Below, piece after piece: positions 158 to 18,463 of a stretch of DNA of 24,907 nucleotides. The stretch covers positions 1 through 24,907 of the IMG/VR virus record IMGVR_UViG_3300006793_000261; one strand, 5' to 3'. The position numbers were made by a program, and so were the translations under genes. This DNA is from a virus. The stretch's first letter is position 1. Every line of letters starts with the position of its first letter. The notes beneath the pieces were generated by a model that saw nothing but the letters and a program-made list of their open reading frames with translations, made no database searches and was not told the origin of the DNA.

Positions 158-1336
158 TTATATTACAAAAAAATCATATCTGTTTTTATATCTACTGTAC
201 ACACAATATCTGAGCGCGTCCATACAATGATCGTTTTTTGATATAGGTTTATTTATTATTGTTCCATCTTTCATTTCTTCCCAAAAATATGTTAATTGTT
301 CTTTTTTCATATTTTTACTCTCATTGGAAATTATTACTTCAAATTCTTTAACTAAACTAATTCCAGCATTTATAGATCCTTGCCCTTTAATTGATGGTTT
401 AGCCAAGCAATCCATCTGTCTTAATTCTTCTATTGATTTTGGTTCAGCACTATCACAATACATTAAAATATCATTTAATTTATTATTTTTTAAAAATTCT
501 GCTAGATCCCGGTTAGTCATTCCCTTCTTGTATAGCCACTCGTGAACATATAATTTGTCGCCAACTTTTCCAACTTGTAAAACCACTGCGGGATCATTTG
601 AATAGCCGAAATCAACACCCAGTGCGGTTTCGTTAAATTCCGGGAACTCAATATGTGGTATGTATTTCCAGTTTTTAAATATTTGTCTGTTACTAAATAC
701 GGCTCTTTGTCCTTCACCGTAAACCAGCCAATAATCAGGGTCACGCTCTCTAATCCTTTCAATCTCATCTATTAACTCCTTTGGTAAAAATTTATTATCC
801 TTGTATGTGCTTATAAATAGATCAGCGTCATCACGCTCTGATAAATCATATAAAAAATGTATTGGATCGGAAGGGTTAAAATCAATTAAAATTTCGTTTC
901 TAGTTCTCATTGCTAACTGTTGATAATCTTCAAAAAATAATTCATTCCCTTCATTGATCCAAAGTATATCTCTTGCAGATCCTCTAATTTTTTGTGCGTC
1001 ATCAGCACTAAACATTTCTAATGTATGCCCGTTATATGTAAAAGTGTTTTCAGATTTATTGTGTTTACCTAGCCAATAAATACCAAGTTGTTTACTTATA
1101 AATAAAAAATCCCTTAACACAGATCTTTTAAGGGCCGGCAGTGTTTTTCTGACTATTGATATAGTGAGCGGATCTTTAGCCACTGACATAGTGTATAAAC
1201 AATATTGCATCAGTGACCAACTTTTCCCGGACCGCGTACCGCCTTGAAAAATTTTTAATCTTTTTGTAGAATCTATTGCTTGATAAAATTGTTTGTTACA
1301 ATATTCTTTTAATCTTTTTCTGTTGCTGGTGTCCAT
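158..1336 (-). CDS. terL: Terminase large subunit (ATPase-nuclease)
   Basis: This is the motor that pumps phage DNA into the prohead and cuts the concatemer. The N-terminal ATPase has a Walker A at residues 32-40 (GGTRSGKSW) and a Walker B with catalytic Glu at about 123-129 (ILWINEG). The C-terminal RNase H-like nuclease shows the three expected acidic residues: D242 in VDFGYSNDP, D295 in MYCDSAEP and D373 in HCMDALRY. The length (392 aa) is slightly short but complete for the PBSX/Terminase_6-type group. The start at 1336 lies inside the end of terS (28-base overlap), implying translational coupling. Portal follows, the standard packaging order. Confidence 0.95.
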   Translation of the reverse strand: MDTSNRKRLKEYCNKQFYQAIDSTKRLKIFQGGTRSGKSWSLMQYCLYTMSVAKDPLTISIVRKTLPALKRSVLRDFLFISKQLGIYWLGKHNKSENTFTYNGHTLEMFSADDAQKIRGSARDILWINEGNELFFEDYQQLAMRTRNEILIDFNPSDPIHFLYDLSERDDADLFISTYKDNKFLPKELIDEIERIRERDPDYWLVYGEGQRAVFSNRQIFKNWKYIPHIEFPEFNETALGVDFGYSNDPAVVLQVGKVGDKLYVHEWLYKKGMTNRDLAEFLKNNKLNDILMYCDSAEPKSIEELRQMDCLAKPSIKGQGSINAGISLVKEFEVIISNESKNMKKEQLTYFWEEMKDGTIINKPISKNDHCMDALRYCVYSRYKNRYDFFVI

Positions 1337-1665
1337 TCAATTAATAGGTTTTCCGGTGGGTTTGCTTCATGCTGTATTTCTTGTCTTTCAACCCAACCCC
1401 TTTCCTTTCCAATGGTTTTAAGGGCAAATATTATTGATGCTTTATCACCTTCATTTATCTTTTCAACTAATTTACTTGTGACAAAATCTAAAAATAATTC
1501 CTTTGGTTGAATATCATTTATTTGTTCGTTAAAATCGTCATCTTTATTAATCCAATTATAATAAGTGCTTCGAGCAATACCAACTCTATTACAAGACATT
1601 GTTATATTGCCAAACGTCTTTGTATAAGCGTCAATAAATGCCTTTTTAGTAAGTTTACTGTCCAT
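1309..1665 (-). CDS. terS: Terminase small subunit
   Basis: This 118-aa protein directly precedes and overlaps terL. Residues 5-40 form a helix-turn-helix: a helix ending in AYTKTFGN, then the ITMSCNRVGIARSTYYNWI recognition segment. That architecture is typical of small terminases, which bind the packaging site and regulate the large subunit. The remainder is charged and helical, as expected for the oligomerisation part. The start ATG at 1665 has no Shine-Dalgarno; a TATTTTTGTA box lies 14 bases upstream. Function is assigned from fold plus position, which together are strong. Confidence 0.87.
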   Translation of the reverse strand: MDSKLTKKAFIDAYTKTFGNITMSCNRVGIARSTYYNWINKDDDFNEQINDIQPKELFLDFVTSKLVEKINEGDKASIIFALKTIGKERGWVERQEIQHEANPPENLLIEWTPATEKD

Positions 1666-1671
1666 AATCGT

Positions 1672-2187
1672 CTATTTAGTACAAAAATACTTTATTTTGT
1701 TTAATATCTTTTTGTATTCAGTTTTTGTGTTATTCTTATATACTTCTACTGTGTTATTTTTTTTTATGTTTTCTATTTTTGTTTGCTTAGATTTTATAAA
1801 TTTTTGTGATTGATTGTCTTTTCTTTTTTCGTGTCTAAGTTTTTCAGTGTCGCTATTTACTTCAATTACTATTATATCACATTCAAATTTATTAAAAAAG
1901 CTTTGATTAAATAATCTATCACCTTCAAATAATATTTTACCATCTGTAATTTTATTACAAAATCTTATAAAATCCGGTTGTACAGCCATAGATAATTTAT
2001 CAGTGCCACTAAATACTGATTTATTATATATTCCAATGATATACAGTTGTTGTTTACTAAAATACATTCCCCGTACTAAGCCAAAATTAAATTTTACAAA
2101 GGGTTTATATGTTTTAATTATTTCTTTTATCAGTGTTGTCTTGCCTGTAGCGGGTTTACCGCCCAGTGCTAATATTCTGTTAGCCAT
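1672..2187 (-). CDS. P-loop kinase, probable 5-hydroxymethylpyrimidine DNA kinase
   Basis: A 171-aa nucleoside-kinase-like P-loop protein. Walker A is at residues 10-17 (GKPATGKT). Residues 40-76 carry a GLVRGMYF stretch and an SGTDKLSMAVQPDF block that I associate with the phage kinase family placed beside aGPT-PPlase/ADDT transferases, of which characterised members phosphorylate 5-hydroxymethyluracil in DNA. A second conserved patch (KILFEGDRLF, about 84-93) and an IIVIEVNSDTEKLRHEKR lid-like Arg/Lys patch follow. Its start overlaps the transferase gene by 19 bases, so the two are co-translated. Predicted role: it activates the hydroxymethyl group made by the TET/JBP enzyme. The P-loop assignment is certain; the base specificity is inferred from context. 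Confidence 0.72.
   Translation of the reverse strand: MANRILALGGKPATGKTTLIKEIIKTYKPFVKFNFGLVRGMYFSKQQLYIIGIYNKSVFSGTDKLSMAVQPDFIRFCNKITDGKILFEGDRLFNQSFFNKFECDIIVIEVNSDTEKLRHEKRKDNQSQKFIKSKQTKIENIKKNNTVEVYKNNTKTEYKKILNKIKYFCTK
1680..1689 (-). promoter_or_regulatory. TAnnTTTGTA box before terS
   Basis: On the minus strand this reads TATTTTTGTA, matching the Bacteroidota -7 consensus TAnnTTTG plus the TA found at several sister sites in this window. It lies in the last codons of the kinase gene, 14 bases before the terS ATG. No -33 TTTG is seen at the usual distance, so this is either a phage-modified promoter or a shared leader signal. It would allow packaging genes to be expressed separately from the modification cassette. 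Confidence 0.4.
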
Positions 2188-3044
2188 TTTTTTTGATAGT
2201 TTTCGTTTCTAAAATCCCACAATACACTCCAATCAACACCGGTTTTAACAAGATCTTGTATTTTTTGTATTTCTTTTTTCTGTCTTTCAATGTAATATCC
2301 AATGTATCTTTTACCTCGTTTATATTTTTTATAAGCACATAAAGTAGTTTCTACATTCCATATATTTTTATGCTGTATATCATAATTGTTTACGTTTTTC
2401 ATTAATTGCTTAAATTCATATTGTAAATAATTAATTTGATTTTTAGACAATTTTCTGTCGTTTTTATGCGTGTATAATTCTTCTTTGCCTAAATGTTCAA
2501 CTAAACCGTTTCGGCAGCTCTCGGCTTGTCTAAGGTCTAAATAAGTTGGTTTTAAATTGTAATCCGTTAATACATTTATCATTTCTATATAAATAAACAA
2601 AGTAAAACGGCCGAAATTCTTAATGTTATTTAACTGTGTAAAACAATTATCGTATGTCATCTGAGGTGTTGGTTGTTTTAAACTAGAAAAATAATCAGCT
2701 TGTGTCATATTTCCAAGCATTTCTTTATAGCTTATAAATGTTTCAACTAATTTGTTTGATGATTTTATTCTTAATCTATCTGTTTGAAATATTGTTTTTT
2801 GTTTGTTTTCATTCCACCATTTCTGTAATCTATTTACATTAACATTTTCGTAATCCGGGAATTCATTATACATATAAAATACAGTGGTTGGAGAATAACA
2901 AGTGCCATATAAAAAAGCAAGCCAATATCTTTGTTCAATGTTAAGCTCAAACCTATCACATACATATTTTAAACAATCATTACTCGGGTCAATATCTTTT
3001 GCTTTAGATGATTCTATGTGATAATCTATGTAATTATAACTCAT
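2169..3044 (-). CDS. Amino acid:DNA transferase (aGPT-PPlase/ADDT family)
   Basis: A 291-aa mostly helical protein. Recognisable blocks are WLAFLYGTCYSPTTVF (41-56), FQTDRLRIKSSNKLVETFIS (86-105), NFGRFTLFIYIEM (143-155), QAESCRNGLVEHLG (173-186), IWNVETTLCAYKKY (228-241), RYIGYYIERQ (246-255) and GVDWSVLWDFR (269-279). I recognise this pattern as the DNA-glycosylase-like alpha-glutamyl/putrescinyl thymine pyrophosphorylase family. These enzymes displace the (pyro)phosphate on activated hydroxymethyluracil in DNA with an amino acid or polyamine. It overlaps the kinase by 19 bases and the amidotransferase by 11. The family is called from memory of motifs, not a search; the donor amine cannot be read from sequence. 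Confidence 0.7.
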   Translation of the reverse strand: MSYNYIDYHIESSKAKDIDPSNDCLKYVCDRFELNIEQRYWLAFLYGTCYSPTTVFYMYNEFPDYENVNVNRLQKWWNENKQKTIFQTDRLRIKSSNKLVETFISYKEMLGNMTQADYFSSLKQPTPQMTYDNCFTQLNNIKNFGRFTLFIYIEMINVLTDYNLKPTYLDLRQAESCRNGLVEHLGKEELYTHKNDRKLSKNQINYLQYEFKQLMKNVNNYDIQHKNIWNVETTLCAYKKYKRGKRYIGYYIERQKKEIQKIQDLVKTGVDWSVLWDFRNENYQKKWLTEY

Positions 3045-3645
3045 ATATTTCGTATGGTGTTACGATTTCTGGATTATAGCTTGCGTCAACCCGTTTAAAA
3101 ATGTCTTTTGTTGATGCTATAAATATTGCGTTTTTATGTTTTAAGATCCAAGCTGGCCGGTTTTTATTTCTAAATAAATACAGTTTGTTGTCATCTGTTA
3201 ACTGCATACCCGCTATGCTCCCGGACGTGGTTGTAATAAAATCTTTTATTTTTTGTTTATCAGTTCCACATAATAAACTTAATAATTCACCATCATTTTC
3301 AGTGTTCATTTTTACATTGTATTTTTTTTCCATTTCTAATTTTGAGCTCATATCAAGAACTCCATTAAATACAACTGTATTGTTTTCGGATATTATAGGT
3401 TGATTGTTTTTTTTTATTTTATAATCACCGCTAGTAGAGTATCTGTTATGAAATATTAATTTATTTACCATTGGTAATTTTATATCAGTAACATTGTTTT
3501 CTTTTACTGTTTTTAATCCGTCTTTTACATAGCTAAAACCAAAGCTGTGTAAACCTCTTATTTTTGATTGTAAAATTAATTTTTGTAAAATATTGTAATG
3601 TTCCTCAGTTGGGTTTTCTGAGCTGTAACCAATAATACCACACAT
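3034..3645 (-). CDS. Class II glutamine amidotransferase (Ntn hydrolase)
   Basis: A stand-alone 203-aa glutaminase domain. The nucleophile Cys2 directly follows Met (MCGIIGYSS). The substrate loop HNRYSTSGD (66-74) with R68 corresponds to the glutamine carboxylate-binding R-x-x-T segment. VVFNGVLD (91-98) supplies the oxyanion N94-G95 pair, and NTENDGELLSLL (114-125) supplies the D118 that contacts glutamine. No synthetase or transferase domain is fused, so it must hand ammonia to a partner or act on another amide. TAATG overlap with the dioxygenase upstream and 11-base overlap with the transferase downstream place it firmly in the modification operon. Likely role (inference): nitrogen supply or processing of the amino-acid adduct on the modified base. 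Confidence 0.85.
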   Translation of the reverse strand: MCGIIGYSSENPTEEHYNILQKLILQSKIRGLHSFGFSYVKDGLKTVKENNVTDIKLPMVNKLIFHNRYSTSGDYKIKKNNQPIISENNTVVFNGVLDMSSKLEMEKKYNVKMNTENDGELLSLLCGTDKQKIKDFITTTSGSIAGMQLTDDNKLYLFRNKNRPAWILKHKNAIFIASTKDIFKRVDASYNPEIVTPYEIYEL

Positions 3646-4538
3646 TAATAAATTTTTTGACCTTTAGATCTATTTTTAGCAATATTAAGTTCTTCATCCG
3701 CTGAACCACAAGAAATCATTTTTTCCCTGTAATACATTACCAATGATATTCTTGTAGCTTTTTCATCTATTTTATTAATTGGTGTGTTCCCGTGCCATTG
3801 ATGTACGTCAACTAATAATAAATCACAATTCTGTATATCAAACGCAACACCCCACTTTGGAACAACAAAATAACCGCCAGTGTATCTGCCTTTTCTTAAA
3901 ACAACTAAATTTCCAAAACCTTTTTCAAAATCACCTTTATCAGTGTGTACGGCTGTTTGCCAGTTTTTATTTACAGTGACAGTTGTAAATGCTGTATCTG
4001 GTATTACAAAATCTTTACTTGTTTCATCAGCAATTTTTCTTTGTAACTTATAATGTTCTGGCATTAATTCAGAGTATTTTTTGTCAACAAATTTTATTAT
4101 TGGATATGCGTTTTTAAATTTTTTAAACTCATGTTCATTAAATGCTGTTTGACGACAATATGGAAATCTTGCGTTGCGATCGAAAAAACCTATTATACCA
4201 CTGTTTACTTTTTGTAGAGCTTTATTTGTGTTAGACATTGTACCGTCTTTTTTAACCGGGCGCCTTTTTAAAATATCAGTTTCTACATCTCCACTGCTTA
4301 CCCCTCTGTTATTAGTGTGTTTTGCGGCCGTTTTTAAGTTTTCAAATCCTGCTTTAGCTATGTTACCAGGGATTATATTTTTTCTGAATTTCGCAATTAC
4401 GTTCCCAGATTCTTGACATATTACATCAGCATCGTAATTAATTAATAAATTAAAATCTTTATCGCCTAATAGTTTGCCAGATAATTTTGAAGCTTCTTTA
4501 TCAGACATTTTAGGCATTACATTATGCTCTGTTATCAT
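3645..4538 (-). CDS. TET/JBP-family 2-oxoglutarate/Fe(II) dioxygenase
   Basis: A 297-aa enzyme with the TET/JBP core. Iron ligands are H198 and D200 in TAVHTDKGD and H249 in HQWHGNTPI; R263 in TRISLVMYY fits the 2-oxoglutarate carboxylate clamp. The family-typical FPYCRQTAF segment (125-133) and GFGNLVVL strand (207-214) are present, so the active site looks intact. Family members oxidise the 5-methyl group of thymine (JBP) or 5-methylcytosine (TET) in DNA to hydroxymethyl. Neighbours that use hydroxymethyl pyrimidines argue for a biosynthetic first step here. The start overlaps the ParB-like gene by 17 bases. Substrate (T or 5mC) is not decided by the sequence. Confidence 0.87.
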   Translation of the reverse strand: MITEHNVMPKMSDKEASKLSGKLLGDKDFNLLINYDADVICQESGNVIAKFRKNIIPGNIAKAGFENLKTAAKHTNNRGVSSGDVETDILKRRPVKKDGTMSNTNKALQKVNSGIIGFFDRNARFPYCRQTAFNEHEFKKFKNAYPIIKFVDKKYSELMPEHYKLQRKIADETSKDFVIPDTAFTTVTVNKNWQTAVHTDKGDFEKGFGNLVVLRKGRYTGGYFVVPKWGVAFDIQNCDLLLVDVHQWHGNTPINKIDEKATRISLVMYYREKMISCGSADEELNIAKNRSKGQKIY

Positions 4539-5112
4539 TGTATAGTTTTTTAATTGCTTGAAATATGCTATCTGTTAAATTATCTGTTTGTAAAAAATCT
4601 CTTAATTCTAATTCCATTCTTCTGAGTTGCGGCTCAGTTTCAGTTGTTAAAAACAGTTGTACCATTTTTACATGAGAATCGTTTATTTCATCTGGGTATT
4701 CATAATCCTCTTCATTTTCATTTCCAACTTCAAATTCAATGTCATTATCCCATTTAGGCAGATCTAATCCCCAAGAAATTAAATCTTGATTATCCCATAC
4801 GTTTGCCAATATATCGTAATCCCACTCACCGTATGATACATTGTCTTTTATTATAAATTGTCTTTTTTGTTCATCGGTCCAACCTTTAGCTACCACAATA
4901 TGTACTTTTTTAAAACCGGCTGCACTACAAGCTTTTAACCTCATGTTGCCGCCTAATACAATCATATTTTCGTCAACTACCATAGGACGCTTTTCCAACA
5001 TCTCTGGAAAATCTTTTAATGATTGTACTAACTTTTTAAATTTGTGGTCTTTAATAAATCTCGGATTATCCGGATTTGATTTAACTTCCTTAATGTTTAC
5101 TGTTTTTATCAT
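4522..5112 (-). CDS. ParB/sulfiredoxin-fold protein of the modification operon
   Basis: A 196-aa protein whose N-terminal 75 residues form a ParB-like nuclease/NTPase domain: SNPDNPRF (12-19), MVVDENMIVLGGNMRLKA (44-61) with the G-G-N-x-R motif at 54-58, then KKVHIVVAKGWT. A DEQKRQFIIKDN segment follows, as in phage ParB proteins linked to DNA modification enzymes, and the C-terminus is acidic (DIEFEVGNENEEDYEYPDE) and then helical. There is no ParB-type HTH, so plasmid partition is unlikely. It heads the cassette and is preceded by its own TAAATTTGTA box. It might guide the enzymes to DNA or bind nucleotide; the exact role is unknown. Confidence 0.78.
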   Translation of the reverse strand: MIKTVNIKEVKSNPDNPRFIKDHKFKKLVQSLKDFPEMLEKRPMVVDENMIVLGGNMRLKACSAAGFKKVHIVVAKGWTDEQKRQFIIKDNVSYGEWDYDILANVWDNQDLISWGLDLPKWDNDIEFEVGNENEEDYEYPDEINDSHVKMVQLFLTTETEPQLRRMELELRDFLQTDNLTDSIFQAIKKLYNDNRA

Positions 5113-17526: not shown

Positions 17527-17952
17527 TTATTGGTTTTCAGTTTTACTAATTGCGCCTGTAACAGTGATAGATCCACTAAACGACACTGGCGATTCCATTT
17601 CTGCGCTCATTTCAACTGAATTTAAAAATCCAGCTCCATTAAATACGTCGTCACCTGACTCAGCAGTACCAAATGACCAATATACTTTTGTTCTTGCTAA
17701 TAAATAGTCAGCAGCTTCAATAGCATTGTTAGAATCGTCATAAGCAACAAGACCTTCAAATGATATTTCTCCAGTTCTTGTTCCAGCAATAACCTCATTG
17801 TAACCTGATGAATCTTTAGTTGTAGCATCTGGCAAATCAGCAGACAAGCTTAAACTTGCACTAGTTGTGTGCCCTACAACAACTTCACTTCCATCAGTTG
17901 AGTGAAATTTTAAAATTAAATTAGTTCCGTTAAATATTCCAGAAGTAGCCAT
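17527..17952 (-). CDS. Major tail tube protein
   Basis: A 141-aa beta-rich protein with FNGTNLILKFHSTDGSEVVV, DLPDATTKDSSGYNEVIAGT and GSITVTGAISKTENQ. ATTKDSxGYxExIAG is the recognisable tail tube signature in TP901-1-like siphophage tubes (Phage_tube family). It is placed upstream of the chaperone and tape measure, as expected. It has a paralogue, the next gene upstream (18005-18463). Being the shorter and more regular copy and having the following hairpin, it is the better candidate for the main tube subunit. Confidence 0.85.
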   Translation of the reverse strand: MATSGIFNGTNLILKFHSTDGSEVVVGHTTSASLSLSADLPDATTKDSSGYNEVIAGTRTGEISFEGLVAYDDSNNAIEAADYLLARTKVYWSFGTAESGDDVFNGAGFLNSVEMSAEMESPVSFSGSITVTGAISKTENQ

Positions 17953-17982
17953 GCGTTATTTTTTTTATAATTATTAATTTTA

Positions 17983-17992
17983 AACAAATATA
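17983..17992 (-). promoter_or_regulatory. TATATTTGTT box before the major tail tube gene
   Basis: Minus-strand TATATTTGTT, a match to TAnnTTTG, 30 bases before the ATG in an A/T-only intergenic stretch; a second TTTATTTGTA is 6 bases upstream. Weaker sister of the TAAATTTGTA boxes. Confidence 0.35.
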
Positions 17993-18004
17993 CAAATAAA
18001 TAAT

Positions 18005-18463
18005 TTATACACTTTCCCAGTTTTTAGCAATATCCTCCCAAAACTCAAATATGTTTTCCCAGTTTTTGTCGTTTCCGGCCGTTACAGTTCCAGTGAGAGT
18101 TATTTCAACGTTAAACTCGCTGATTGATTCGTTATCACCGACCTCGTCAACGCTTGTGATAAATCCTTCACCTCTACATATCAACTCGGGATCCGTAGTT
18201 TGTTTAAAATAAAAAACAACCTTAGATTTTCCAATTACATAATCAGAAAATTGATTAAAATTTAAAGAATCATTGTAACAAGTTAACCCGGCCGCAGACA
18301 TATTACCACCTCTAACACAGGCAATAAATTCCTTCCAACCTAAACTGTCTTTTGTTGTAGCTTCTGGTAAATCTAATTCAAGCGCAAATGTAGTTTCAGT
18401 ACTGTGACCAATTATGACATCGTCTTTTAATAATAAAAAACTTGACGAATTAATCACTGACAT
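18005..18463 (-). CDS. Second tail tube-like protein (paralogue)
   Basis: 152 aa. The core aligns with the major tail tube protein: VIIGHSTETTFALELDLPEA, TTKDSLGWKEFIACVRGGNM, VEITLTGTVTAGN. It differs by a C-terminal tail, NWENIFEFWEDIAKNWESV, Trp-rich and imperfectly repeated. It is likely a minor tube subunit, tail terminator-proximal or decorating protein, or a head-tail variant. It is adjacent and in the same direction, so it arose by duplication and divergence. Spacing to the upstream coiled-coil gene is 3 bases. Function of this second copy is inferred. Confidence 0.72.
   Translation of the reverse strand: MSVINSSSFLLLKDDVIIGHSTETTFALELDLPEATTKDSLGWKEFIACVRGGNMSAAGLTCYNDSLNFNQFSDYVIGKSKVVFYFKQTTDPELICRGEGFITSVDEVGDNESISEFNVEITLTGTVTAGNDKNWENIFEFWEDIAKNWESV

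Follow-up and report, generated by a model that had tools for sequence, protein, structure and literature searches.

Comparison with known thymine modification systems

Two routes to modified thymine have been studied separately. In Pseudomonas phages M6 and PaMx11/Ab18 (Mesyanzhinovviridae), a thymidylate synthase homolog (present in Ab18) makes 5-hydroxymethyl-2'-deoxyuridine (5hmdU) on the nucleotide, and a 5hmdU DNA kinase, an ADDT-superfamily transferase and then tailoring enzymes follow. In the kinetoplastid base J pathway (JBP plus glucosyltransferase), a TET/JBP enzyme oxidizes thymine in DNA first. Here, we analyze a five-gene cassette that unites TET oxidation in DNA with kinase/transferase thymine hypermodification. 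It lies in IMG/VR virus record IMGVR_UViG_3300006793_000261 (positions 1 to 24,907; the window), a 24.9 kb record that is a fragment of a phage of bacteria. The cassette encodes a ParB-like protein, a TET/JBP 2-oxoglutarate (2OG)-Fe(II) dioxygenase, a stand-alone class II glutamine amidotransferase (GATII), a long ADDT transferase, and a P-loop kinase. A TET stands where the Pseudomonas phages use a thymidylate synthase homolog, and GATII plus long ADDT stand where Ab18 has a glycinyltransferase and a flavin lyase. Compared with base J, the cassette has a kinase and a proposed amination instead of glucosylation, with no glucosyltransferase partner. We give about equal weight for and against the specific proposal that GATII and ADDT form a glutamine-dependent DNA amidotransferase, which would convert phosphorylated, TET-made 5hmdU to 5-aminomethyl-dU directly in DNA. 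In this proposal, ParB would serve as the loading factor, and the whole would form a widespread modular viral cassette.

The initial annotation knew of no characterized pathway with exactly these parts, and this needs partial revision. Cultured Coopervirus mycobacteriophages (e.g., Magpie genes 1-5) encode ParB-like, TET/JBP, ADDT, P-loop kinase, and terminase proteins in the same order as the window, but the GATII-family profile found no GATII in Magpie, and protein similarity is low. In the Magpie record (L261:1-5203), genes 2 and 3 are annotated as hypothetical proteins only. Rhodococcus phage Tonitrus has an annotated five-gene thymidine hypermodification set (PMC11955845); it resembles the window in its ParB-like protein, tet-like J-binding protein, 5-hmU DNA kinase, and transferase-class protein, but has, by annotation only, aGPT-PPlase2 for ADDT and a hypothetical protein for GATII. 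The ADDT of Ackermannviridae (ViI-type) is a full-length homolog (long-ADDT profile 1.6e-40, hhalign 99.6%), whereas the one genome inspected, phiEa2809, has no annotated TET beside ADDT and no GATII match. Glutamine-derived ammonia has also been predicted for phage DNA hypermodification by CmoY AMP-forming ligases (PMC12783734), which differ in acting on carboxymethylcytosine, in having a fused glutamine-hydrolyzing domain, and in enzyme class. What stands of the original statement is that a search of 50,697 phage records did not find the GATII-paired cassette. Arthrobacter phage Salgado and the Pseudomonas phages tf and Lyrsu01 do have GATII relatives, but these were rejected, as they belong to amidoligase/ATP-grasp cassettes instead. 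The ParB-TET-ADDT-kinase core is already known; the new element is the putative GATII-fed step and its breadth, and this disguise of viral DNA has apparently gone unstudied so far.

Gene content and proposed pathway

The five open reading frames (ORFs) all lie on the minus strand, and neighboring genes overlap by 17, 1, 11, and 19 bases in turn, which agrees with the initial description of five coupled genes. The ParB-like protein (4522..5112, 196 aa) matches Pfam ParB_N (1.9e-4), phrog_940 (4e-25), and phrog_620 (2.5e-24), and the dioxygenase (3645..4538, 297 aa) matches Pfam Tet_JBP (1.6e-27). GATII (3034..3645, 203 aa) is recognized by phrog_4736 (4.5e-16) and Pfam GATase_6 (1.2e-4), long ADDT (2169..3044, 291 aa) by Pfam ADDT (1.6e-15), and the kinase (1672..2187, 171 aa; Walker A GKPATGKTT) by Pfam Ploopntkinase3 (0.0019). 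Tet_JBP and ADDT are above the Pfam curated cut-offs, and ParB_N, GATase_6, and Ploopntkinase3 are below them. The five family assignments made earlier nonetheless hold; those of GATII and the kinase gained support from PHROGs, alignments of many homologs, profile matches in the PDB, and a structure model. The reading as a cassette for DNA base hypermodification, with kinase and transferase acting after the TET, is likewise supported.

On balance, we favor, with modest confidence, a post-replicative thymine hypermodification pathway with an ammonia donor. The TET/JBP enzyme, perhaps recruited to DNA by the ParB-like protein, would hydroxylate the thymine methyl in replicated DNA, giving 5hmdU, which the P-loop kinase would (pyro)phosphorylate. 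GATII would then hydrolyze glutamine and pass ammonia to ADDT, which would displace the (pyro)phosphate to yield 5-aminomethyl-dU. In most relatives, though not in the window phage, a GNAT would acylate the amine. The modified base would shield phage DNA from host nucleases. PurF offers an analogy for the amination step, as its GATII domain is coupled to pyrophosphate displacement from phosphoribosyl pyrophosphate. We infer the thymine substrate, step order, ammonia donor, final product, protective role, and ParB role from the comparisons below. If the scheme is true, phages would hypermodify thymine with the nucleotide pool unaltered, glutamine-dependent DNA amination would add a new reaction to those that enzymes perform on DNA, and the enzymes would be a possible tool for placing amines on thymine of ordinary DNA.

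Conservation and module composition across viral contigs

Profile annotation yielded 177 distinct TETs, 123 of them with at least 3.3 kb downstream; the loci were gathered with TET, kinase, and GATII alignments, and all proportions describe this sample, not nature. The kinase profile scored in 77 of the 123 loci. A gene-neighborhood search, which the initial annotation had suggested, found that the cassette recurs: 57 of the 77 kinase-bearing loci include GATII, and long ADDT is present in every one of these (57/57). Altogether, the GATII cassette occurs in ~60 viral sequences sampled from marine and freshwater environments. Some are close copies of the window cassette (L003-L006) and others are divergent and sit in other backbones (L009, L010/L011), such that the conserved cassette is found in unrelated phage backbones.

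A GNAT-type acyltransferase gene is part of most GATII cassettes (48/57) and of none of the other kinase loci (0/20); the window phage cassette lacks it, unlike most relatives. The main GNAT family and the Abidjanvirus Ab18 acetyltransferase are related (hhalign 98.1%), which implies a free amine, and an amine product fits the presence of GNAT genes. Two contigs (L060:11583-12969 and L089:9635-11015) have an Amidoligase_2-like gene (a weak match, tested on L060) as well as a GNAT between GATII and ADDT, suggesting a possible peptide-like extension of the amine. In L033/L038, an apparent gene on the minus strand, lying between GATII and ADDT, is likely a shadow ORF over the GNAT and was discarded. 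In three loci (L166, L169, L175), GATII and long ADDT are accompanied by a shorter, divergent TET past ADDT, and the small P-loop protein ahead of GATII is a different one; replacements seem to have taken the place of both the TET and the kinase. Kinase and TAGT (TET-associated glycosyltransferase) genes nearly exclude each other (76 loci with kinase only, 25 with TAGT only, one with both), and base-J-like glycosylation was therefore set aside for the window cassette.

A sister form of the cassette has a short ADDT and a flavin adenine dinucleotide (FAD) protein in place of GATII and long ADDT. The FAD protein, a putative flavin lyase, occurs with short ADDT in 9/9 cases and never together with GATII, while L044 has short ADDT without the FAD protein. 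The short ADDT matches the PDB glycinyltransferases 8z2m (3.8e-28) and 25qc (1.6e-34), and the FAD protein matches the flavin-dependent lyases 8z2o/8z79 (1e-34). Judging by the titles of the PDB entries and of the 5-NmdU paper, these are enzymes of the 5-phosphomethyl-dU route. In Ab18, the genes for the glycinyltransferase, flavin lyase, acetyltransferase, and kinase lie in a row, with the kinase annotated as terminase small subunit.

The two modules have been exchanged in nature. L095 and L097/L041 are ~96% identical in DNA until the TET ends and once more from the point where the kinase begins, yet the middle is GATII-GNAT-ADDT in L095 and short ADDT-FAD in L097/L041, with no detectable DNA similarity between them. 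L131 and L048 show the same exchange of the middle module only, with flanks 90-96% identical. On the kinase tree, which has several long branches, the module label changes nine times, and at least five of these changes are forced by well-supported branches. As judged from these alignments, TET and kinase are the common stem of both modules. This precise exchange within a shared TET-kinase frame is the strongest indication that both modules would accept the same, thymine-derived intermediate and probably do the same job. The two exchanges make the equivalence of GATII plus ADDT with glycinyltransferase plus flavin lyase directly testable.

Ammonia or amino acid as the donor

The GATII profile (43 sequences) matches PurF and GlmS at ~1e-9. 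Cys2, which the initial annotation had noted as intact along with TET H198/D200/H249/R263, is invariant in the 43 homologs, as are the glutaminase residues Arg68, Asn94, Gly95, and Asp118. The 203 aa protein consists of the glutaminase domain only, with no fused synthetase or acceptor domain, and the adjacent ADDT is a candidate acceptor partner. As the basic cassette has no ATP-dependent carboxylate-activating enzyme, the predicted role of GATII as ammonia donor for the displacement step is an easier reading than amidation of an attached amino acid.

The AlphaFold model of long ADDT (pLDDT 95.4) matches the fold of the 5-PmdU glycinyltransferase 8z2n/8z2m (prob 1.0, TM 0.61-0.64); by its PDB title, 8z2n is a 5-phosphomethyl-2'-deoxyuridine glycinyltransferase from a Pseudomonas phage. 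The D-x-DP and ETxLC core motifs are kept. Long ADDT is predicted to displace (pyro)phosphate from 5-phosphomethyl-dU.

A serious but less probable rival follows the same TET-kinase-ADDT thymine route, with ADDT adding a whole amino acid (e.g., glutamine or serine) and GATII acting afterwards or beside it, for instance converting a glutaminyl amide to glutamyl. Several observations weigh in its favor and against direct amination. By sequence, long ADDT is nearest to Ackermannviridae ADDTs, and the product of Ackermannviridae-type transferases bears an amino-acid-derived group, so that this kinship makes amino-acid attachment possible; the glycinyltransferases, the other nearest characterized lineage, and the family name also denote amino acid transfer. 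Long ADDT also occurs without GATII in Ackermannviridae, Coopervirus, and L086, making GATII an added partner of one clade, and GATII is a free-standing domain. Against amino-acid addition are the strict pairing of GATII with long ADDT, the exact exchange with glycinyltransferase plus flavin lyase, and the GNAT genes, which fit a primary amine. The invariant residues of the glycinyl set (E92R93R94, W146, K150, D153, K248) are also not kept in long ADDT, although the alignment is weak around ERR and the Ackermannviridae ADDT inspected likewise lacks them. The initial annotation had proposed that an amino acid or amine is added, with the amidotransferase tuning nitrogen. The comparative data favor ammonia from GATII over a whole amino acid tuned later, since GATII is always with long ADDT and never with flavin lyase, and the modules swap precisely.

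In the kinase, residues G10, G15, K16, D63, E88, G89, R91, R118, R122, and Q126 are invariant in 43 homologs, and so is the Walker A motif. The best PDB matches of its AlphaFold model (pLDDT 94) are adenylate/guanylate-kinase-like (AK/GMPK), and profile comparison relates it to the kinases of the Ab18/YuA/CN1/Pam3 thymidine-hypermodification clusters (hhalign 95.9%). Together, these suggest that the window P-loop protein is a probable 5hmdU DNA kinase. Profile A6 alone gave no PDB sequence match, and matches came through fold and profile-profile comparison. A scan of genome contigs using the ADDT alignment did not turn up any relative. In PHROGs and in phage records, 5hmU-kinase-like proteins (phrog_800; window 1672-2187; L256:6640-7209) bear the label "terminase small subunit", which is likely a misannotation that hides hypermodification cassettes.

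TET/JBP dioxygenase and the substrate base

H198, D200, H249, and R263, the Fe(II) triad and 2OG-binding arginine, are near-invariant over the 177 TET homologs. Since the sister module is homologous to the 5-phosphomethyl-dU module, thymine is the most likely substrate base, and the window TET is a predicted thymine 5-methyl hydroxylase working on DNA. The initial annotation held that the TET, rather than a nucleotide hydroxymethylase, makes the hydroxymethyl group, and this is supported: searches of the window and its two longest close relatives found neither a thymidylate synthase homolog nor a C5-methylase. dUMP hydroxymethylase, the thymidylate synthase homolog, was found in none of 45 cassette-related contigs (45/45 negative), while Ab18 was detected as positive control, and nucleotide-level hydroxymethylation was set aside given these negative searches.

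It is improbable, though worth weighing, that the TET acts on 5-methylcytosine supplied by the host or by a phage methylase that escaped notice, with kinase, ADDT, and GATII then modifying 5-hydroxymethylcytosine. Characterized phage TETs act on cytosine next to C5-methylases (Burke 2021, as cited in PMC12730594). In our sample, Melnitz-type TETs adjoin a C5-methylase, unlike the cassette TETs. Some of these methylase-linked TETs have kinase-like P-loop proteins nearby, so the kinase alone is no proof of a thymine route; this counts against our assignment. Arguing for thymine, 42 of the 45 cassette-related contigs had no C5-methylase above the curated cut-off, and in the three that did, the methylase did not adjoin the TET, although the contigs are mostly fragments and absences are hence no proof. 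The homology of the exchanged sister module to 5-phosphomethyl-dU enzymes also speaks against cytosine.

Residue 271, eight past the 2OG arginine, is Arg in the window TET and in most methyltransferase-free TETs (61/77, 13/13, 24/26, and 6/6 by class). Of the 48 C5-methylase-linked phage TETs that were scored, 44 have Asp. We take this position to be the probable counterpart of the base-contacting His in TET2/NgTet1; a search of the PDB with profile A1 found no TET structure. This contrast is suggestive only as a pointer to the TET substrate: 16 GATII-type TETs have Leu at this position, and the Arg/Asp difference is confounded with phylogeny, as the methylase-linked set is roughly one lineage.

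Among loci with enough upstream sequence, a ParB gene is directly upstream of the TET in 54/58 GATII-type and 13/13 flavin-type loci, and in 0/45 of the C5-methylase-linked TETs. This distribution, with ParB beside almost every kinase-type cassette and no methylase-linked TET, fits its probable role as a DNA-engaging or recruiting subunit.

Finally, the window is only a 24.9 kb fragment of a phage, but a decaying or assembly-joined gene assortment without joint function has a negligible chance of being correct: the gene order is conserved in dozens of divergent contigs, which come from many samples, and this excludes chance association; the catalytic residues and translational overlaps are intact.

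Neighboring genes and related TET loci

Directly downstream of the kinase, and outside the proposed pathway, are the terminase small subunit (1309..1665, minus strand; phrog_309/24579, ~3e-6) and large subunit (158..1336, minus strand; phrog_2, 2e-49). The nearest cultured relatives of the large subunit are Bacteroidales phages (37-38%). Elsewhere in the window (17527-18463) are two tandem major-tail-protein paralogs (phrog_1407), which may be the main subunit of the tail tube and a variant of it.

Other TET loci point to further modifications. Cultured Nonlabens phage P12024L (L002:8920-10548) and L012:6819-9294 encode an Arg271 TET followed by one or more TET-associated glycosyltransferases, with no C5-methylase in the record. 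These are candidates for a phage base-J-like glucosyl-5hmU, a type of modification unreported in phages according to PMC6449724. A ParB-TET-FkbM methyltransferase arrangement occurs in cultured Pelagibacter phage HTVC112P (L001:6973-9195), in whose record no C5-methylase was found, and in L074, L075, L082, L087, and L090; its possible product is O-methylated 5hmdU. In Methylophilales phage Melnitz-3 (L181) and L182-L252, an HhaI-like C5-methylase adjoins the TET, sometimes with TAGT or a kinase-resembling P-loop protein, possibly a cytosine counterpart with a kinase step. In L062:7919-10807, the TET lies beside genes for a radical SAM/SPASM protein and for a glycosyltransferase of the TAGT type.

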